Made by a program: the position numbers and the translations under genes
In this document: positions 5,059-40,829 of the stretch, piece after piece
Layout of the letters: the number at the start of each line of letters is the position of its first letter
Numbering within the stretch: the first letter of the stretch is position 1
Origin: a virus
Virus record (IMG/VR): IMGVR_UViG_3300047550_001246
Coordinates: 1 to 56,160 of that record
Strand: one strand, 5' to 3'
Length of the DNA stretch: 56,160 nucleotides
The notes under the pieces: model-generated
Database searches by the model: none
What the model saw: the letters and a program-made list of their open reading frames with translations, nothing else
Told to the model about the DNA's origin: nothing

Positions 5059-6668
5059 TGCCACTTCAGCCGGTCATCGTTCGCTCCGAACCCGGAATTA
5101 AGCGGGACGGAACGAAGTTTGAAGGTAACTTTTATGTTGACGGGCAATGGGTCCGTTTTCAACGTGGGTTGCCGCGTAAGATCGGTGGGTATCGCGCACT
5201 CCAGGATCGACTGGATGGCATCGCCCGTGGCATGCACATTCACAATCATAATGGTTATACCTATGTCCACATAGGTACGGCAGCGGGCGTGTTTCGTTTT
5301 CGTCTCAGCCAGAACGGACAATCCAGCATTGTTACCGATCGCACGTACAGCGGATACGTCGCCAACTCCGATAACCTTTGGCAGTTTGATGTGGCGTTTA
5401 ACACCACAAACAGTCAGAACGAAATTTTGGCTCATGCAGCGCCAAACATCGAAGACATCTCTTCAGATGCTGCGGGTCAGCTTTATCAAGGTTTTGATAA
5501 CGGAACGAGCGAGTTGGTCCCGGTTTCTGGCATTACCGTCTCTGGCGGTATCGTTGCCCTTGCTCCGTATGTGTTTGCGTATGGATCAGATGGCTTTATT
5601 CAATGGAGCCGCGCAGGGTACACGGATGACTGGTCCGGCGGCGATGCTGGTGAGGCGCGTGTTACGAGTCAAAAAATCGTTAAAGGATTGCCTCTACGAT
5701 CCGGTGCAGGTAACGCGCCGTCTGGACTCTTCTGGTCATTGGATTCAGTCATTCGTGCGACCTACGTTGGCGGTGCCCCGGTTTTCCAGTTTGACACCAT
5801 TACCTCGCAGTCAAGCATTCTCTCTTCGCAGAGCGTGATTGAGTACGACGGTATTTACTTCTGGTGCGGTGTTGACCGTTTCTTGATGTTTAACGGTGTC
5901 GTGCGTGAAGTGCCGAACTCGCTGAACCTGAACTGGTTCTTTGATAACCTAAACTACTCTCAGCGCCAGAAAGTATTTGCTTTTAAGGTTCCGCGCTGGG
6001 GCGAAATCTGGTGGTGTTACCCGAGGGGTAATGCAACTGAGTGTACGCATGCCGTCATTTACAACGTGCGTGAGAACACATGGTACGACACGGAACTCCC
6101 GAACGGCGGACGCTCTGCGGGTCAATATGCGCAGGTGTTTAGTTCACCCCTCGTAGTAGGTGTGATTGATACCGAAACGGTTCAATTCCGCGGAACGCAA
6201 GATACAGAGCGTCGCGTAACAGAAGACGATCAACCGCGAATCATTAATGACCCAAAAGGTTATGTGGTTTGGCAGCATGAATACGGAACGGATGAAATTA
6301 ATGGCGACAGGATTCGCCCCATACAGTCTTACTTTGAAACGGCGGATATGTCTTTGGTTGCGGCACCTGAGCCACAAAACATGGCTGTTCGTGTTGAGTA
6401 CATGGAGCCAGATTTTGTTCAGTCTGGAAACATGACCGTACAAGTTACGGGTAGAGCAAATGCTAAAGCAGGCGAAGTAACAAGCGATCCTCAAACAATT
6501 TATGCAACGCTAACGGATCGTCAGCAGCAGCTTGTCTACTTCCGCGAGATTCGTCGAGAAATGCGCTTTCGATTTGAGAGCAACACGGTTGGCGGGAACT
6601 ACCAGATGGGGCAGATCATTGCCCATATCGAACCGGCTACGGGTACGGTCCTTGGAGAGAATCCATGA
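5058..6668 (+). CDS. Tail nozzle / packaged DNA stabilisation protein (P22 gp10-like)
   Basis: 536 aa, beta-rich with propeller-type repeats (YTYVHIGTAAGVFRF; VFAYGSDGFIQWSRAGYTDDW; GIYFWCGVDRFLMFNG; EIWWCYPRG). Proteins of this length and look form the nozzle or plug below the adaptor ring in short-tailed phages, sealing packaged DNA. The gene sits directly after adaptor and fibre genes and overlaps the next gene by 4 bases. This is one of the main arguments for a podovirus-like virion. Confidence 0.7.
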   Translation: MPLQPVIVRSEPGIKRDGTKFEGNFYVDGQWVRFQRGLPRKIGGYRALQDRLDGIARGMHIHNHNGYTYVHIGTAAGVFRFRLSQNGQSSIVTDRTYSGYVANSDNLWQFDVAFNTTNSQNEILAHAAPNIEDISSDAAGQLYQGFDNGTSELVPVSGITVSGGIVALAPYVFAYGSDGFIQWSRAGYTDDWSGGDAGEARVTSQKIVKGLPLRSGAGNAPSGLFWSLDSVIRATYVGGAPVFQFDTITSQSSILSSQSVIEYDGIYFWCGVDRFLMFNGVVREVPNSLNLNWFFDNLNYSQRQKVFAFKVPRWGEIWWCYPRGNATECTHAVIYNVRENTWYDTELPNGGRSAGQYAQVFSSPLVVGVIDTETVQFRGTQDTERRVTEDDQPRIINDPKGYVVWQHEYGTDEINGDRIRPIQSYFETADMSLVAAPEPQNMAVRVEYMEPDFVQSGNMTVQVTGRANAKAGEVTSDPQTIYATLTDRQQQLVYFREIRREMRFRFESNTVGGNYQMGQIIAHIEPATGTVLGENP

Positions 6669-22888: not shown

Positions 22889-23262
22889 TTGACATGGTGA
22901 TCTATGGCAAGCCTGTCGCGAAAGCGCGACCGCGCTTCGGACGGAGCAAGTCGGGTAAGCCCGTGACGTATACATCTTCTGAGACACGCAAGTACGAGCA
23001 AGAAGTCAAGACCCTTGCTCAAGTTGCGATGTTCGGGAAGGAAATGTTAGAAGGTCCAGTACGGGTCACGATCACGGCATTCTTTAATCACAAAACGAAG
23101 ACCGGATACCACACATCACGACCCGATCTAGACAACGTCATCAAGGCAATCCTTGACGGATTGAACGGAGTCATCTTTGCGGACGATGCAGCCGTTGCTG
23201 AAATCGTCGCGTCAAAGAAGTACGGAGAAGAACGAGTAGAGGTTCAGATCGAAAATGTCTGA
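22885..23262 (+). CDS. rusA: RusA-like Holliday junction resolvase
   Basis: 125 aa, usual RusA length. The core RPDLDNVIKAILDGLNGVIF gives catalytic Asp81, Asp83 and Asp91, followed by D100-D101 (FADD). N-terminal GKPVAKARPRF is the conserved beta strand of the family. It should cut four-way DNA junctions made during recombination-dependent replication. It overlaps both neighbours (4 and 8 bases). Confidence 0.9.
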   Translation: MIDMVIYGKPVAKARPRFGRSKSGKPVTYTSSETRKYEQEVKTLAQVAMFGKEMLEGPVRVTITAFFNHKTKTGYHTSRPDLDNVIKAILDGLNGVIFADDAAVAEIVASKKYGEERVEVQIENV

Positions 23263-25492
23263 CAACTTCATGCAGCAGTTTGGCGCGAAGCTCAAAGACG
23301 GTGGCTATCGCGTCATCCCCATCATGCCGGGAACCAAACGTCCGGGTAGATGGGATGGTAAACAATGGGGTGAGCTCGCGCGATGGAACGAAATCGACGC
23401 GCAGCAAACTCATATCGACATCTGGTCCGGCTGGCCCGGATGCGGCATCGGCATTCTCACCGGAGAAGTCGTTGCGATCGACATCGATATCCTTGAGCCA
23501 GAGATTGCCGTCGAGATTGGTAGCGTTTTCAAAACGCATCTTGGTGAAGCGGATCTTGTTCGGATCGGTAAAGCACCGAAGGCACTCTACCTTTACAGAA
23601 CGAACGAGCCGTTCAACAAGATCTCGATGCACCCCATCGAGGTGCTCGGACTCGGTCAGCAGTTCGTATCCTATGCGATACACCCGGAAACCTGCGAACC
23701 GTATCGCTGGCCTTTCGGTGCACCGCACGAGGTTCCCGTCAGCGCGCTACCGCTCGTAACCAAAGAGCAAGTGCTGCGCGCGTGTGAGGCTGCGTACCAG
23801 ATACTGCCGCCCAATCTTCGCAAGAAGGTACTGCGCACCACGGTCCCAGATAAAGAAGCAAAGGTTTCAAACGACGGCCTCGTAGGTACGCTCGCTGCCG
23901 TTGAAGATGCTCTGCGCTACGTTCCGAATCCAGACCTCACATGGGATGACTGGAACCGTATCGGCATGGCGATTTACTGCGCGACCGAAGCAAAGGGTTA
24001 CACAGTCTTCGACCAATGGTCGCAAGCTTCCGGCAAGTACAATCAACTCGAGACGCGGCAGAGGTGGGATCACTACAGCAAGTCGCCACCCACCAAGATT
24101 GGTGCGGGAACGCTCTACTTTCTTGCGCAGCAGAACGGTTGGGTTCCGCCTCCGCACATTGATCTCAATCCCATCAAGCCCGTAAAGATTGATCTGACCG
24201 GACTCGACAAGATGGTGAAGAAGACTGTGCGCAGTACGCGCGAGAACTTCCCAAGCGAATGGTTCGACAGCCCATCTCTTGTCGGTCGCGTTACCCGTTG
24301 GATCAACGCTACCGCACAACAACCGCAGCCCACCTTCGCACTAATGAACACGCTCTGCATGTTCGGTGCAATCTTCGGGCGGCGGTATGCGATGGCTCAC
24401 CTCAACACCCGGTGCAACCTGTTCGCGATCGCAGTCGCAAAGCCTGGCGCGGGTAAGGACCACAGTCGGCAGCGCATCAAGGAACTGATGACCGCATCCG
24501 GTCTGTCTCAACTTATCTGCGGCGATCGCTTTAGTTCCGGTGTTGCAATCCTTCGCACCCTTCACGACTACCCGTCACGCATCTCGCATCTCGATGAGAT
24601 GGGGCTGTACTTGCAGAGCTTGACCGCACGTAACGCAGCCTCTCATCAGCGCGACATTATCAAGACCCTGCTCGAGGTGTACTCCTCCAGCAGCGGCGTG
24701 TATCACGGTCAAGAGTATGCGGACTCGCGCGATCGTCAGCGTCTCGATATCAACCAACCCAACTTCAACTTCTTCGGAACCACGACTCCACGCACTCTGA
24801 TCCCCGCGCTCAATCACGACATGGTGGATAACGGAACCATGAGTCGTATCCTGCTTGTGCCTCCGTTCGATGATTACCCTGTTCCGCAGATACCAGAACA
24901 ACTGAGCGCGCCTGATGACATCGTGGAAGATATCCAGAACTCCGCGCAGATCATCCCCTCCGGTGTCGGTAACATGGCGAACGTGCAGTCGATCCCGAAT
25001 GCAGCGGTCGTGCCCATCATCGTGGAGTGGGAAGACTCAGCCTTCGCGGAGTACAGCAAAGTACGCGAGTGGCAGTTAAACCAAGCGCGCAACGATGACG
25101 CACTCTGGGTTCGCTTCACCGAAATCACCGTCAAGATCGCCATGATCGAAGCCATCGCTCGCGATCCCGTCGCTCCCATCTTGACGTTTGAAATCTTCAA
25201 GATGGCAAATGATCTTGCTCGCTGGTCGTTCAACTACACCTCTGACCTCATCGTCAAAGAGATCGCAGAGAACGAGATCGAAGCTTCGCACAAGAAGATT
25301 CTCAACATCATCCGCAAGTCTGGCGATGAAGGCATGAGCACCACCCAGATCGCAAAGGTCTGCCAAGGTATGAAGGCTCGCGACCGTAACGAAATCTTGC
25401 AGACCCTCGTCGAGTCCGGTGATCTCATGGAAGAGATAGTGAAAGGATCTATCGGTCGCGACCGTCGCGTCTACCGCGCAAGGGTCAGATAA
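23255..25492 (+). CDS. Primase-polymerase / helicase fusion
   Basis: 745 aa. The N-terminal AEP prim-pol domain (1-200) has the DID motif at D76-D78 (VVAIDIDI) and a SYAIHPETCEPYRW strand. Residues ~205-290 (PNPDLTWDDWNRIGMAIY) look like a PriCT domain. The C-terminal half is an ATPase with Walker A KPGAGKDH near residue 394 and Walker B-like ISHLDEMG near 440, of the DUF3987-type helicase group. The last ~70 residues resemble a winged helix (GMSTTQIAKVCQGM). It should prime and unwind the phage genome. It starts with an 8-base overlap on rusA. Confidence 0.85.
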   Translation: MSDNFMQQFGAKLKDGGYRVIPIMPGTKRPGRWDGKQWGELARWNEIDAQQTHIDIWSGWPGCGIGILTGEVVAIDIDILEPEIAVEIGSVFKTHLGEADLVRIGKAPKALYLYRTNEPFNKISMHPIEVLGLGQQFVSYAIHPETCEPYRWPFGAPHEVPVSALPLVTKEQVLRACEAAYQILPPNLRKKVLRTTVPDKEAKVSNDGLVGTLAAVEDALRYVPNPDLTWDDWNRIGMAIYCATEAKGYTVFDQWSQASGKYNQLETRQRWDHYSKSPPTKIGAGTLYFLAQQNGWVPPPHIDLNPIKPVKIDLTGLDKMVKKTVRSTRENFPSEWFDSPSLVGRVTRWINATAQQPQPTFALMNTLCMFGAIFGRRYAMAHLNTRCNLFAIAVAKPGAGKDHSRQRIKELMTASGLSQLICGDRFSSGVAILRTLHDYPSRISHLDEMGLYLQSLTARNAASHQRDIIKTLLEVYSSSSGVYHGQEYADSRDRQRLDINQPNFNFFGTTTPRTLIPALNHDMVDNGTMSRILLVPPFDDYPVPQIPEQLSAPDDIVEDIQNSAQIIPSGVGNMANVQSIPNAAVVPIIVEWEDSAFAEYSKVREWQLNQARNDDALWVRFTEITVKIAMIEAIARDPVAPILTFEIFKMANDLARWSFNYTSDLIVKEIAENEIEASHKKILNIIRKSGDEGMSTTQIAKVCQGMKARDRNEILQTLVESGDLMEEIVKGSIGRDRRVYRARVR

Positions 25493-35261: not shown

Positions 35262-35391
35262 GTGCTAGTTCCTCGTTTGGTTAGGTTCAAATTCACTCGA
35301 CGGGTACATGATAAGCCCAACCCGGTTGAGCATTGCAAGGGGTTCGATTGCAAAGTTTTGTTAAGATTTTGTAATGTGATTGTGCATAACC

Positions 35392-35400
35392 TGTGGATAA
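35392..35400 (-). promoter_or_regulatory. DnaA box
   Basis: TGTGGATAA on the plus strand is the exact reverse complement of TTATCCACA, the proteobacterial DnaA consensus. A near match TGTGCATAA lies at 35381-35389. Host DnaA could load the helicase here. Confidence 0.65.
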
Positions 35401-35447
35401 GTGAGGGGGCGGGGGAATTAATGCATACCCAGCTTGTCCGCCAGGTG

Positions 35448-35463
35448 GTCGTGAAAACGACCG
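35448..35463. promoter_or_regulatory. Hairpin GGTCGT-GAAA-ACGACC
   Basis: Perfect 6-bp inverted repeat with a GAAA tetraloop, located between the two copies of CCGCCAGGTGGTC. It has no T run, so it is not an intrinsic terminator; a protein site or RNA structure is likelier. Confidence 0.45.
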
Positions 35464-35671
35464 CCAGGTGGTCATTTCCGTAGCCGGGTAATTAATGCAT
35501 AACTTAATGCTTAATTAATGCATGACCCGAAAGTGTCGATTTTCCTTTGTAAATCAGTCACTTGGGAATTAATGCATTTAATTCTATTTTTACTTAAGAG
35601 AAACGGAGGGAGAGGGGGTGAGAGGGTGTGTCAAGAAAACAACACACCGTTGCAGGAAAACAACACAAGTA

Positions 35672-35716
35672 TAGATAGATATATAATAATAATAATAAAT
35701 AATAATATATATAATA
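35672..35716. other. AT-rich unwinding-type tract
   Basis: About 45 bases almost free of G and C, built from ATA/AAT runs (TATAATAATAATAATAAATA-like). Such tracts are where duplex DNA melts in bacterial and phage origins. Confidence 0.5.
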
Positions 35717-35802
35717 CCCTATCTTTCGTAGAATCAATGACTTACGCGCGATTGTTTAATGCTTACCTTAAAAGCAAAAATATGCATTAAGTTTTTGGCG
35801 GG

Positions 35803-35868: not shown

Positions 35869-36408
35869 GTGAACGATAAGACGTTACAGGCGGATAAGGG
35901 CGTTACCCTTGGGGAGGGTAGCGGGGTGAAGTCGAGCGGCTATAATGGCTCGACCGCGCGTTCTGGGGGTGTTGTAGTGCAGCAGAGCACTAGAGCCGTA
36001 TCCCCAATAAACGATAACCGAAAGCATCCCGATGCGAATCTAGCGGCGACCATTGCGACCATGTCGTTTTCGGGATTCACCATGTCGCAAGTGTGCAGCG
36101 CGCTCCGATTGTCGGAGGAAACCGTTCGCAAGCATTACGACTATGAGTTCAAAAACGGTCAATCGAATATGGTGAACGACATCGCGCAATCTCTCGCGCA
36201 ACGCGCTAAAGCTGGGTCCGATACCGCTGCAATTTTCCTATTGAAAACGCGCGGATCGGGAAAGTTTACGGAGCGCAACGGTATCGAATTGACCGGGAAG
36301 GATGGCGGACCGATTGAGGTGCAGCAGCGCACAGAGATTCTCTCGAACGTGAACGGGCTGCTACGGAAAGGGGTTACGATTGACGGAGAGGTTGAACCGC
36401 TCGACTAA
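35869..36408 (+). CDS. Terminase small subunit-like DNA-binding protein
   Basis: 179 aa, GTG start. N-terminus is low complexity. Residues ~65-95 form an HTH (FTMSQVCSALRLSEETVRKH). The helical middle (SLAQRAKAGSDTAAIFLLKT) and ELTGKDGGPIE resemble small-terminase or related packaging DNA-binding proteins. It is 2.9 kb from terL rather than adjacent, so the role is less certain. It could also be an initiator protein for the adjacent origin. Confidence 0.6.
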   Translation: MNDKTLQADKGVTLGEGSGVKSSGYNGSTARSGGVVVQQSTRAVSPINDNRKHPDANLAATIATMSFSGFTMSQVCSALRLSEETVRKHYDYEFKNGQSNMVNDIAQSLAQRAKAGSDTAAIFLLKTRGSGKFTERNGIELTGKDGGPIEVQQRTEILSNVNGLLRKGVTIDGEVEPLD

Positions 36409-36458: not shown

Positions 36459-37229
36459 TTAGGCTGGCACGGCGAAGTTCGAGAGGCTACGACGCGCGCG
36501 ACCCTTTGCGCGCAATGCCACCACGATACCCGGATTATCCAAAAATCTTAGGTCCGTAGAATCGCCATTCTCGACCGTACGACCTAAAAACGTCGCCGGG
36601 AATGTGCCTTTAAAAACGGCGGCGAAATTGACGCGCGACCCGTAATGACGCAAAGCGCGCACCACGATAGGCGCGAATGCTTTCGCATGCGAATAACTAA
36701 ACGTGAGCGCATAGTTCGCGATATCCGCAATGCGACGGTTCGGGAGTTTGGTGTAATCGTAGAATTGTAGTTCCGGGAATGCGGCGAAAATGTGCGGATA
36801 TTCGCGACCGTCGCGCGCGCATGGCACGGTTTCCCATCGGATGTCCGATGTCCCATTCAGTCTAATGACAAGTTTTTTGCGCTTGCGTCGCGCGTACTTT
36901 TTCGCGCTTTCAATTTCGGTCACCAATTGCGCCATAAATCCGACACGGTCCGAAAGGTAAAAATGCGTTCGACGCAATCGCGCTTTCTGAATTGCGTTAT
37001 CTGGCATGTCGTGACCGTGTGAGTCGAAACTAGTGTTTCCCGGTGACATGCCACCCCGGCCCGCATAGTTCAGACAATCGACCACGCATTCCGCAATTCG
37101 CTCTAATCCACATACGTTAGTTCCCGAACTATCGGAAGGTGCAAGGTATAAAACCCCGGTAACGTACCCGCGCTTTTGACCCTTTACGGTTTTCGGATTC
37201 GCATCGATGTTAAGCAATTTCGTTTTCAT
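36459..37229 (-). CDS. GP88-family phage protein
   Basis: 256 aa. GYVTGVLYLAPSDSSGTNVC, KKLVIRLNGTSDIRWETVPC and FPELQFYDYTKLPNRRIADI match the pattern of the phage GP88 family (Cys-bearing N-terminus, VRLNGTSDI, QFYDYTK). The family is widespread in phages with no proven activity known to me. Start is preceded by AGGAACTAGCAC, shared with two other leftward genes. It ends before a terminator. Confidence 0.75.
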   Translation of the reverse strand: MKTKLLNIDANPKTVKGQKRGYVTGVLYLAPSDSSGTNVCGLERIAECVVDCLNYAGRGGMSPGNTSFDSHGHDMPDNAIQKARLRRTHFYLSDRVGFMAQLVTEIESAKKYARRKRKKLVIRLNGTSDIRWETVPCARDGREYPHIFAAFPELQFYDYTKLPNRRIADIANYALTFSYSHAKAFAPIVVRALRHYGSRVNFAAVFKGTFPATFLGRTVENGDSTDLRFLDNPGIVVALRAKGRARRSLSNFAVPA

Positions 37230-37462: not shown

Positions 37463-37497
37463 GCCCATCAATGCACACGACCACCACGCGGACAGTC

Positions 37498-37631
37498 TCG
37501 CGCGCGCTAGTAGTAAACCGCGCGACATGCGCGTACACGCGCGCGCACCTGGCGCGCACATGCACGCACACGCACACGCGCGCACGCATGCGCGCCTGGA
37601 GCGCGCACGCGCACGCGCGGTTTATGCGCGC
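37498..37631. repeat. Alternating purine-pyrimidine (CG/CA) tract, Z-DNA-prone
   Basis: About 130 bases made almost only of CG, CA, TG and GC steps, with an inverted repeat AAACCGCGCG (37515-37524) and CGCGCGGTTT (37614-37623), and an inner one GGCGCGCA (37551-37558) and TGCGCGCC (37589-37596). Three ORFs cross it but none gives natural protein. The whole 37397-37938 gap has no convincing gene. Confidence 0.75.
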
Positions 37632-37938
37632 AATACCCTCGGGACCCCTATCGACGCGCGATCGCCCAATGCGCGATGCGATGCGGTACGGGGCACGGTT
37701 TTCGACGGGTGGGGTGCTGGGTCCCATCGCGTATATCACCTCCCGACTCCACCGCCATTTTTCAGATGCACTATCCCCTTGCGCACAAAAGTGTTAGGGT
37801 CCCATCCGGGTATCTGGCACGGTGCGCGTGCAGCGACTAGACCGGCAGCGGGGCTAGCACACAGGCTCCACGGTTGTTGGAGATCGCTGCTTTCCGGCAG
37901 GATAATCCTGCATACCCCAACGGCAACGAAGGACCTCA

Positions 37939-38499
37939 ATGCTTTACACAGGCGCAGCCCCGTTACCCCGGCATACGTATGCGTATGTGGAGCCGAATGC
38001 GTTAGGGACCCACAACTGGCTGCGAGTTGCGTGGTTTGGGTTGGTATCTCATCCGGGGAGAACGTGGGGATGTCATGTGATGCTGGAGTGCGGGGCGGTG
38101 TATCGGAACGTACCGTTACACAAACTTGCACACAAACCCACAGGGACCCCTTGGGACCCCGCTTCTGCACAGACTTGGGATTGCTACGGGATTCACTTTA
38201 GCGTACTGGAGTATCCGTTTCTTGAAGGGACCCGGATCAGAACCCGGCTACGGTCTAAGGAGGAGCACACGGGCAATTACTTGTTTACCGCGATCCCGAT
38301 GTTGGATGGGTTTAGTTTAGAGCCGGAGCAGAGCAAGGAGTTTTACTTCATCAAACTGGACAACGGGCGCTTTACAGCGCAACCTACGAATCATTTGTTG
38401 GTTCAGGACAAGTCGTTCATTACTGACTCAAACTGGCCCAAGTTAAAGCGTCAAACTGATGTATGGAGTGTTGACCATGGCAACGAAGTCGAAAGTTAA
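37939..38499 (+). CDS. Conserved phage protein upstream of packaging genes, 186 aa
   Basis: Soluble alpha/beta protein. HVMLECGAVYRNVPLHKLAH, PASAQTWDCYGIHFSVLEYP and PMLDGFSLEPEQSKEFYFIK look natural and recur beside packaging genes in uncultivated phages. No motif for an enzyme is visible. The longer ORF starting at 37413 in another frame is rejected. It lies after the CG/CA tract and overlaps the next gene. Confidence 0.6.
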   Translation: MLYTGAAPLPRHTYAYVEPNALGTHNWLRVAWFGLVSHPGRTWGCHVMLECGAVYRNVPLHKLAHKPTGTPWDPASAQTWDCYGIHFSVLEYPFLEGTRIRTRLRSKEEHTGNYLFTAIPMLDGFSLEPEQSKEFYFIKLDNGRFTAQPTNHLLVQDKSFITDSNWPKLKRQTDVWSVDHGNEVES

Positions 38500-38659
38500 C
38501 GCAGCGGGCAATTACACGAAGCCCGAGATGCGTAAGAAGTTGTTCAATCAGATCAAAGCCTCTGCAACGCAGGGCACCGCAGCGGGGCAGTGGTCAGCCC
38601 GTAAAAGTCAGTTGTTAGCCAAGAAATATAAAGAAAAAGGCGGCGGCTACCGTGACTAA
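38477..38659 (+). CDS. Small basic conserved phage protein, 60 aa
   Basis: VNAAGNYTKPEMRKKLFNQI and GQWSARKSQLLAKKYKEKGG form a small basic family that recurs near terminase genes in phages. Start ATG 38477 is preferred because it begins MATKSKVNAAG; it overlaps the previous gene by 23 bases and the next by 8. Likely nucleic-acid binding; function unknown. Confidence 0.75.
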   Translation: MATKSKVNAAGNYTKPEMRKKLFNQIKASATQGTAAGQWSARKSQLLAKKYKEKGGGYRD

Positions 38660-39122
38660 AGTTTGCACAATGTGCGGGGAAGAAAAGCCTTTTTCCGCAT
38701 TTCGTTCTCGTGGTGGAGACATGAAGCATTTGCTTAAAAGCCGATGCAATACTTGTCTTTACAAAGAACATCGCAAATGGACCGTTGAGAATCCTGATCG
38801 TGTTCGGGAGTACCGAACTAAAGACAGTTGGACGCTTGCAAAAAGATGCGCCCGTCGTGGAATTACGCCTGAGCAACTTGTTACTGCATACGAACGTCAA
38901 GAAGAATGCTGTGCAATTTGCAAAACCGAAATTGAGTTAATTGACAGCGCAATTGACCACAATCATCAGACCGGCGAATTTAGGGGCGTGTTGTGCAAGC
39001 AATGCAATCGTGCTTTAGGAATGTTTAAAGACAGTCCGTTTGTTTTAAAGAACGCCTTGGAATATCTAGAAGCATTTGGGAGTTATGGTGATGCCTCTGA
39101 AACCGTCACAAAGATCGCTTAA
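38652..39122 (+). CDS. Endonuclease VII-like HNH nuclease
   Basis: 156 aa, GTG start. N-terminal zinc-binding CTMCGEE and CNTCLYKEH, then ECCAICKTEIELIDSAIDHN (HNH core with DHNHQTGEFRGVLC) and CKQCNRALGMF. This is the recombination endonuclease VII pattern (T4 gp49-type), which resolves branched DNA before packaging, and HNH enzymes are often next to terL. Confidence 0.85.
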   Translation: MTKVCTMCGEEKPFSAFRSRGGDMKHLLKSRCNTCLYKEHRKWTVENPDRVREYRTKDSWTLAKRCARRGITPEQLVTAYERQEECCAICKTEIELIDSAIDHNHQTGEFRGVLCKQCNRALGMFKDSPFVLKNALEYLEAFGSYGDASETVTKIA

Positions 39123-39330
39123 AGACTGGACCGCGCAGGAATGGCGCACCAAGTCGGGCAAGCCGTCGAGTAAAACTGGCGAGCGATATCTACCGGCTGC
39201 TGCGATCAAGGCACTTTCTCCGCAGGAATACGCGGCAACGACGCGAGCGAAGCGCGAGGGCAAAGCGAAGGGCAAGCAGTTTGTAGCGCAGCCGAAAGCG
39301 ATAGCAAAGAAGACCTCGCGTTATCGATGA
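39091..39330 (+). CDS. DUF5872-like small basic protein, 79 aa
   Basis: MPLKPSQRSLKDWTAQEWRT, SGKPSSKTGERYLPAAAIKA and EYAATTRAKREGKAKGKQFV are the repeated segments of a well-known small phage family (DUF5872-like). GGAG lies upstream; earlier TTG/ATG starts at 39076 and 39085 are alternatives. Function unknown; basic. Confidence 0.75.
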   Translation: MPLKPSQRSLKDWTAQEWRTKSGKPSSKTGERYLPAAAIKALSPQEYAATTRAKREGKAKGKQFVAQPKAIAKKTSRYR

Positions 39331-40829
39331 ACCAGCCTGCTAAAGGGACCCCAGCGGGGACCCCTCCCCCGCTGGACATGAATGATCCGTTGATCAAGGA
39401 GCTGAACAAGCTTCCAACGGACGATTTGATTGCGTATGAGAACCGGCTCAAGTGGGCGAATCAGAGACACAAGCACCAGAAGCCACCGAAGGGCGAGTGG
39501 ACAGTGTGGTTGATGCTGGCCGGAAGAGGCGCGGGTAAGACGAGAGCCGCAGCCGAGTGGGTGTGGTGGCAGGCGTACAAAACGCCGGAGACGCGCTGGT
39601 TGGTGTGTGCACCCACAGCAGCGGACATTCGCGATACGTGTTTTGAGGGAGATTCCGGGCTGATTTCTGTGATGCCCGAGCGTGTTGTTCAAGAGTACAA
39701 CAGGTCGCTGTCAGAGATTATTCTCAAGAATGGCTCGTTGATTAAGGGCATTTCAGCGGAAACCCCCGACCGGCTGCGTGGTGGTCAATGGCATGGTGCG
39801 TGGTGCGATGAGTTAGCAGCCTGGCAGTACGATCAAGAAGCGTGGGACATGATCATGTTCGCGCTACGTTTGGGTAAGCATCCAAGGATCGTAGCAACGA
39901 CGACACCGAAGCCGAAGGCGCTGATCAGAGACTTGATCGGGCGTGATGGGTCGGATGTACACGTTACACGGGCATCGACTTACGAGAACATTGCGAATCT
40001 GGCTCCGACTTTTCAGCAGCAATTGCTGAAGTTTGAAGGTACGACGCTGGGTCGTCAGGAGATCCATGCGGAAGTTTTGAACCCTGAAGAGCAGGGCATT
40101 ATCAAGCGCAACTGGATCCAGCTCTGGCCAGCGAAGAAGCCATTACCTGCGCTTGAGCACATTGTGATGAGCTTGGATACCGCTTTCACGGAGCAGACTC
40201 GGGACAAGAAGACTTCGGATTCGGACCCGAGTGCGTGTGTGGTGCTCGGGCTTTTTTACGAGAATGAGAAGCCGAACATCATTTTGCTTGATTGTTGGGA
40301 AGACCGGCTCGGGATGCCGGAGCTCATCAAGAAGGTCAAGCGCGAGATGGAGGTGTACTACGGGGATGATGAGCAGAAGCCCATGATCAAGCCCAAGTTT
40401 GGTCCATCTCGGATGATTAATACGGGCAGAAAGCCGGACACGATCGTGATCGAAGACAAGGGCAGCGGGATTTCGCTCCGTCAGATGCTGGCTCGGGAGG
40501 GCATCGTTGCGCATGCATATAACCCCGGAAAGGCATCGAAGCTGACCCGGTTGCACATGGTGAGTCATTTATTCGCGGGTGGGATGGTGTGGATGGTGGA
40601 GAGCGAGAAGCGTGCGAAGCAGGTGCGCTCTTGGGCGGAGCCGCTCGTGTACCAGCTCTGTTCGTTCTCGGGTGAGGGGACGATCAAGCACGATGACTTG
40701 ATGGATGCCTGCACCCAAGGTTTACGTTTCCTTGCTGATAAAGATATGATAAGCGTGAGTAAGCCTAAGCCGTTGCAGCCGAGGCTCATTGTGAACTCGC
40801 GCCCGAGGGGAAATCCGTATGGCATCTGA
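39327..40829 (+). CDS. terL: Terminase large subunit
   Basis: 500 aa. Walker A LAGRGAGKT at 64-72, Walker B WCDE at 159-162, coupling segment TTTPKPKALIRDL, and the RNase H-like nuclease with SLDTAF, VIEDKGSG and HDDLMDACTQ acidic residues. It should translocate and cut genomic DNA into the prohead. ATGA overlap with the previous gene; its 3' end overlaps the portal start by 11 bases. Confidence 0.95.
   Translation: MNQPAKGTPAGTPPPLDMNDPLIKELNKLPTDDLIAYENRLKWANQRHKHQKPPKGEWTVWLMLAGRGAGKTRAAAEWVWWQAYKTPETRWLVCAPTAADIRDTCFEGDSGLISVMPERVVQEYNRSLSEIILKNGSLIKGISAETPDRLRGGQWHGAWCDELAAWQYDQEAWDMIMFALRLGKHPRIVATTTPKPKALIRDLIGRDGSDVHVTRASTYENIANLAPTFQQQLLKFEGTTLGRQEIHAEVLNPEEQGIIKRNWIQLWPAKKPLPALEHIVMSLDTAFTEQTRDKKTSDSDPSACVVLGLFYENEKPNIILLDCWEDRLGMPELIKKVKREMEVYYGDDEQKPMIKPKFGPSRMINTGRKPDTIVIEDKGSGISLRQMLAREGIVAHAYNPGKASKLTRLHMVSHLFAGGMVWMVESEKRAKQVRSWAEPLVYQLCSFSGEGTIKHDDLMDACTQGLRFLADKDMISVSKPKPLQPRLIVNSRPRGNPYGI

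Follow-up and report, generated by a model that had tools for sequence, protein, structure and literature searches.

A Z-prone CG/CA tract in a variable spacer beside a conserved array of GGGWCCC boxes at the head of a phage packaging operon

Phage pac sites lie inside or beside terS, as in SPP1 and P22 and in the hexamer repeats of P1, while arrays of phage operators are exemplified by the stoperators of L5. The locus described here invites comparison with both. Like pac sites, it contains short repeated boxes that lie within terS or between it and the terL start, although these boxes span up to 1.7 kb, extend into the codons of terL, share a 9-mer with unrelated phages and are known here from sequence alone. 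Like operator arrays, the boxes are short, oriented and situated ahead of an operon, but they are confined to one locus per genome, and their regulator is hypothetical. Next to them lies a tract that resembles the Z-forming (CG)n/(CA)n sequences in its long alternating purine-pyrimidine run and low modelled B-Z energy, whereas it differs from them in its CCTGG islands, in the large excess of CA over TG on the plus strand and in that its Z form is a modelled one.

The window, i.e., the whole stretch of DNA analysed, is the entire 56,160-bp IMG/VR virus record. The tract and the surrounding features are located as follows:

35375-35800, no strand: origin-like region just upstream of terS, with two DnaA-like boxes, several TTAATGCAT iterons and an AT-rich stretch
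35869-36408, plus strand: TerS-like gene (phrog_309, E = 5.6e-6; helix-turn-helix (HTH) plus helix-pair model)
36459-37229, minus strand: GP88-family gene, the last of the leftward unit
37481-37495, plus strand: conserved left end of the spacer module, CCACCACGCGGACAG
37498-37631, no strand: CG/CA alternating purine-pyrimidine tract, a type A spacer module, defined by alternation count and by its variants in relatives
37514-37524, plus strand: left arm of the outer inverted repeat, TAAACCGCGCG, lost in some relatives
37552-37595, no strand: longest uninterrupted alternating run, 44 nt
37614-37624, plus strand: right arm of the outer inverted repeat, CGCGCGGTTTA
37939-38499, plus strand: first rightward gene (phrog_3704)
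38652-39122, plus strand: endonuclease VII-like gene
39327-40829, plus strand: terL, terminase large subunit

The tract is thus found at the terS/terL locus, within a 709-bp spacer that separates two diverging units. From position 37939 on, the rightward genes follow in the order first rightward gene, endonuclease VII-like gene, terL and portal gene. The original prediction, made from the DNA letters of the window, had described about 130 alternating bases with inverted-repeat arms just before the rightward packaging genes. The tract is present as described, and its alternation lies far beyond chance. In the best 130-bp window, 112 of 130 steps alternate, the highest value in the genome, compared with a genome-wide mean of 65 (sd 7) and a maximum of 88 outside the tract; none of 300 simulated first-order Markov genomes exceeded 93 alternations or a run of 30. 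Further alternating runs of 24 nt (37525-37548) and 19 nt (37601-37619) flank the longest one, with CCTGG islands interrupting the alternation, and the two outer arms form a perfect 11-bp inverted repeat. As to its position, the tract does sit at the head of the packaging operon, although the next rightward gene begins only at 37939 and terL at 39327. It was also thought to be the lone exception in ordinary coding DNA, which holds for the strength of its alternation but overlooks a second unusual region at 35375-35800.

A low-quality assembly region, considered at the outset as a trivial explanation, does not account for the tract, because an independent contig (L003) contains it in identical form, with one mismatch in 13,049 bp, and because 15 variants occur at the same place in relatives from many samples. 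A coding repeat was likewise rejected, as no reading frame stays open in all tract variants. An Rfam search returned no RNA family match, a tRNA search was negative, and no intrinsic terminator (a GC hairpin followed by a T run) was detected within 37498-37631.

Relatives were collected as 80 loci from a TerL search. In about fifteen of them, a comparable tract occupies the equivalent position, giving 15 distinct variants for alignment. Their ends, ACCACCACGCGGACA and, in most cases, GCGCGGTYTAATCGCGCAA, are well conserved and may be bound sites, while the interior varies in both length and sequence. The alternating fraction remains between 0.73 and 0.91 among phages with up to 16% divergence in TerL. 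Every variant is much richer in CA than in TG on the plus strand, a strand asymmetry that possibly reflects a mutation bias. The left arm is lost in L045 and L083 and the inner stems in L016 and L025, as seen on inspection of the alignment; hairpin pairing, again judged by inspection of the aligned variants rather than by a formal covariation count, is not kept across relatives. Length changes are evident as well: L016 has lost 42 bp compared with L018, about 41 of them (by eye) in the tract between ACGCACGC repeats, and L020 and L014 differ by 21 bp. Substitutions within the tract favour transitions (31:11 inside versus 31:33 outside, p = 0.015). Together with the retained alternation, this bias could reflect selection for alternation, but in-phase alignment and dinucleotide slippage produce the same pattern.

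Other relatives fill the spacer with different modules, namely GC hairpins (type B), DnaA-box arrays (type C), GCTGGC repeats (type G) or no such repeat (type o), and some of them (L017, L068) have no repeat at all at this place. In six relatives (L017, L019, L021, L023, L024 and L026), TerS precedes terL and the spacer lies in between, but the tract is missing; L019 additionally lacks the small gene, and L017 and L026 are sisters of the clade that includes the analysed phage. Conservation of the tract in related phages, proposed as a check, is therefore partly contradicted by sister phages that retain the TerS-spacer-terL order. On the TerL tree, the distribution of module types requires 18 changes, and different modules occur alongside identical (L021/L022) or near-identical (L040/L041) TerL proteins, L041 having been assigned to type A manually, on the right half of its tract only. 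The possibility that the tract tracks the TerS type was discarded, since type A changes five times on the TerS tree and four times on the TerL tree; module types B and G follow a single long-branched TerS clade. In the trees of both proteins, TerS is far more diverged than TerL. Contig ends were also considered as physical ends, but a rough look showed no pile-up among the loci from the TerL search. The spacer looks like a recombining one, which weakens any interpretation that makes the tract essential.

Considered as a whole, these observations are best explained, with somewhat better than even confidence, by a tract that serves as low-complexity filler of an exchangeable spacer and leaves the sequence-specific work to the neighbouring boxes. 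The CG/CA repeat would occupy the spacer between the leftward genes and the GGGWCCC array that heads the rightward packaging operon. Comparison of the loci shows that its length changes as stretches between short repeats inside it are deleted or duplicated, and that the whole spacer is exchanged through recombination on either side of it, which leaves related phages with quite different spacers. Judged from these alignments, the tract is a real but not a fixed element, an optional and evolving spacer. It is probably a fast-evolving repeat in a recombining region, Z-prone and dispensable, and a role as an indispensable signal for packaging or replication is unlikely. Any effect it has would be passive, with a Z- or hairpin-prone stretch absorbing negative supercoiling between the diverging units. 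The sequence-specific work would probably fall to the GGGWCCC/GGGTCCCAT boxes, read by a small terminase or a late-operon regulator. The tract illustrates how phages swap and mutate the spacer beside essential genes.

The array boxes of the analysed phage, all on the plus strand, are arranged as follows:

37641-37647, plus strand: GGGACCC box that opens the array and is degenerate in modules of other types
37719-37727, plus strand: GGGTCCCAT box 1
37797-37805, plus strand: GGGTCCCAT box 2, 78 bp after box 1
38005-38233, plus strand: GGGACCC boxes at 38005, 38143, 38153 and 38227, inside the first rightward gene
39345-39363, plus strand: two GGGACCC boxes within the initial terL codons

The conserved element at this locus is the box array beside the tract and not the tract itself. 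The array starts 10 bp to the right of the tract, and nine of the twelve GGGWCCC boxes in the genome lie at 37641-39363 (binomial p = 7e-12 for nine of twelve in 1.8 kb, an interval chosen after the fact). The boxes are conserved in 79 relatives, whose -1.2 kb regions of terL contain 425 of them versus 14-19 expected, while a single box is found between -6 and -1.5 kb; in an unbiased count, GGGWCCC ranks among the most region-enriched heptamers. The array is present in every module type, also where the first rightward gene is missing, and further boxes occur in some relatives past the terL start, at distances of roughly 0.4, 0.5 and 1.9-2.1 kb. Within genes, the boxes are kept by codon choice: Gly-Thr and Gly-Ser pairs are written GGG-WCC-C in five of six cases in 37939-39400 versus none of 150 elsewhere (p = 8e-9). 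The codons of the TerL start, KGTPAGTPPP, contain two GGGACCC boxes, which gives the impression that this end of the protein was moulded by the boxes in the DNA. As a candidate recognition element, the array thus shows the conservation that the tract lacks across relatives; its recognition by a protein is putative. It is the part of the region that persists and could mark packaging, and it had been missed in the original prediction.

Arrays of this kind also occur outside the family. When IMG/VR was scanned for two GGGTCCCAT copies at a distance of 60-90 bp, at least 119 stretches were returned, compared with 27 for a palindrome of equal composition used as control. Among the matches listed, 81 non-family loci were searched for TerL with 11 queries, and TerL was found in 40. 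In all 40 of these loci, the array precedes terL or extends into its first part, and in 38 it is oriented towards terL; as many of the 40 are near copies, they effectively count as something closer to the dozen TerL lineages used. In the 65 distinct arrays among the matches listed, about 67 of the 71 boxes beyond the searched pair share the same orientation, and six contigs (6-147 kb) each hold their GGGTCCCAT sites in one array on one strand, with reverse matches only as overlaps with a forward box. Ten large proteins encoded downstream of arrays comprised six TerL proteins, two structural proteins and two without assignment. The array-bearing phages are unrelated tailed phages with GC contents of 0.34-0.69, and only one of 55 arrays outside the family is preceded by comparable alternation. 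Oriented GGGWCCC/GGGTCCCAT arrays heading terminase operons were thus recorded at 37641-39363 of the analysed phage and in L153-L260, and the set of papers searched contained no description of such a box motif.

As regards the host, one TerL match (~51%) lies in a Burkholderiales MAG contig without boxes. Named phages yielded no box arrays in the set tested: the records of RW, CRP-2, CRP-345, CRP-902, HTVC103P, DSL-LC04, Pkon1 and Manatee Spring contain no box in the stretches read, and MinM2 has one, far from terL. In HTVC027P (L261), HTVC023P (L263) and 023Pt_psg01 (L267), one isolated GGGWCCC precedes terL by no more than 170 bp, in AT-rich surroundings. In an AT-rich 320-kb contig (L188), a 30-bp tandem repeat that includes GGGTCCCAT is present six times at positions 5074-5233; this repeat looks separate and was set aside. 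It is tempting to speculate, in full awareness that the balance is against so broad a claim, that the GGGTCCCAT arrays constitute a recurring, oriented recognition code heading terminase operons in many unrelated tailed phages, read by small terminases or a widely shared factor, and that in this family the code dictates codon choice and perhaps N-terminal residues of TerL, while the adjoining spacer, including the Z-prone tract, varies freely. If the array is indeed a packaging or late-operon code, it would allow the packaging start or operon head to be located from sequence alone in many uncultivated phages.

These findings suggest that the boxes are putative terminase-recognition (pac-like) sites or sites of a late-operon regulator, two candidate readings of which recognition by TerS is ranked slightly ahead. 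In one form, the former holds that tract and boxes together make up the packaging start, with TerS reading the boxes and the tract being part of the recognised or cut site. This tentative reading, to which we assign a minority share of our confidence, draws on the position between terS and terL, on the strong conservation and clustering of the boxes and on L225, whose array lies inside a gene related to the terS of the analysed phage. It is also consistent with the oriented arrays upstream of terL in unrelated phages, often beside an HTH protein: in 11 array loci, an adjacent or nearby gene encodes an HTH followed by a long helix pair (model pLDDT 68), a predicted layout that is the one of small terminases and is also seen in the modelled TerS of the analysed phage (pLDDT 62; 85-92 over the helices). 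However, profile and fold comparisons do not prove the homology of this HTH family with TerS, and fold searches with both TerS-like models gave nothing significant, Sf6 TerS being reached only at E = 0.6-1.7 with the TerS of the analysed phage. In addition, the arrays may lie up to about 6 kb from terL, and the tract is dispensable across relatives.

Alternatively, the boxes could be operators of a late-operon regulator, with the tract, as a leader hairpin or spacer, in the same control region. The arrays indeed stand at operon heads, oriented with the operon in 38 of 40 cases, the HTH gene is adjacent in 11 loci, and some arrays precede tail or structural genes instead of terL (L241, L259). 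This reading, which we hold with slightly less confidence than the former, has against it that the boxes of this family continue into several genes and into the codons of terL, which is unusual for operators.

A selected Z-DNA or cruciform element, flipped by supercoiling behind the diverging polymerases and insulating the two units or helping to open the late promoter, appears unlikely. The Z-proneness that had been predicted is borne out by an energy model, whose energy table and junction costs stem from the literature and whose values are to be taken as relative: with a B-Z midpoint sigma of about -0.038, the tract is the easiest stretch of the genome to convert. It is nonetheless only moderately Z-prone, ranking between (CG)16 (midpoint -0.032) and (CA)30. 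Its location between diverging units, the alternation retained as the sequence changes, the transition bias inside and a fold better than that of dinucleotide shuffles (z = -3.3 as DNA and -3.4 as RNA) are all consistent with such an element. However, the tract is missing from sister phages with the same gene order, non-alternating modules with midpoints of -0.049 to -0.058 substitute for it in L033, L072 and L017, the hairpin pairing expected of a cruciform is lost across relatives, and the box arrays of unrelated phages are not tied to it. Moreover, the subset of ORFs scanned included no convincing Z-alpha protein; the C-terminus of the primase (23255-25492) gave a weak, sub-threshold Pfam Z-alpha match, but key residues are missing by eye, and it was rejected as resembling a generic winged helix. 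The initial interpretation is right as to place and Z-proneness; of the roles envisaged for the tract, insulator, superhelical sink, protein site or packaging mark, a required insulator or packaging mark is not supported, because such an element would be expected to persist.

Finally, a replication origin at the tract is highly improbable and was rejected, because the separate origin-like region at 35375-35800 is the better candidate and the tract, while sharing with iteron/DnaA origins the presence of short repeats in an intergenic spacer, contains neither a DnaA box nor an AT-rich unwinding stretch. Exact DnaA boxes are located a few hundred bases upstream of terS in the type A relatives L005, L014, L045 and L048. 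In twelve other relatives (L032, L034, L040, L042-L044, L057, L065, L072-L074 and L078), the tract-equivalent spacer itself harbours three to five DnaA boxes, possibly forming a second origin or a DnaA-titrating array.
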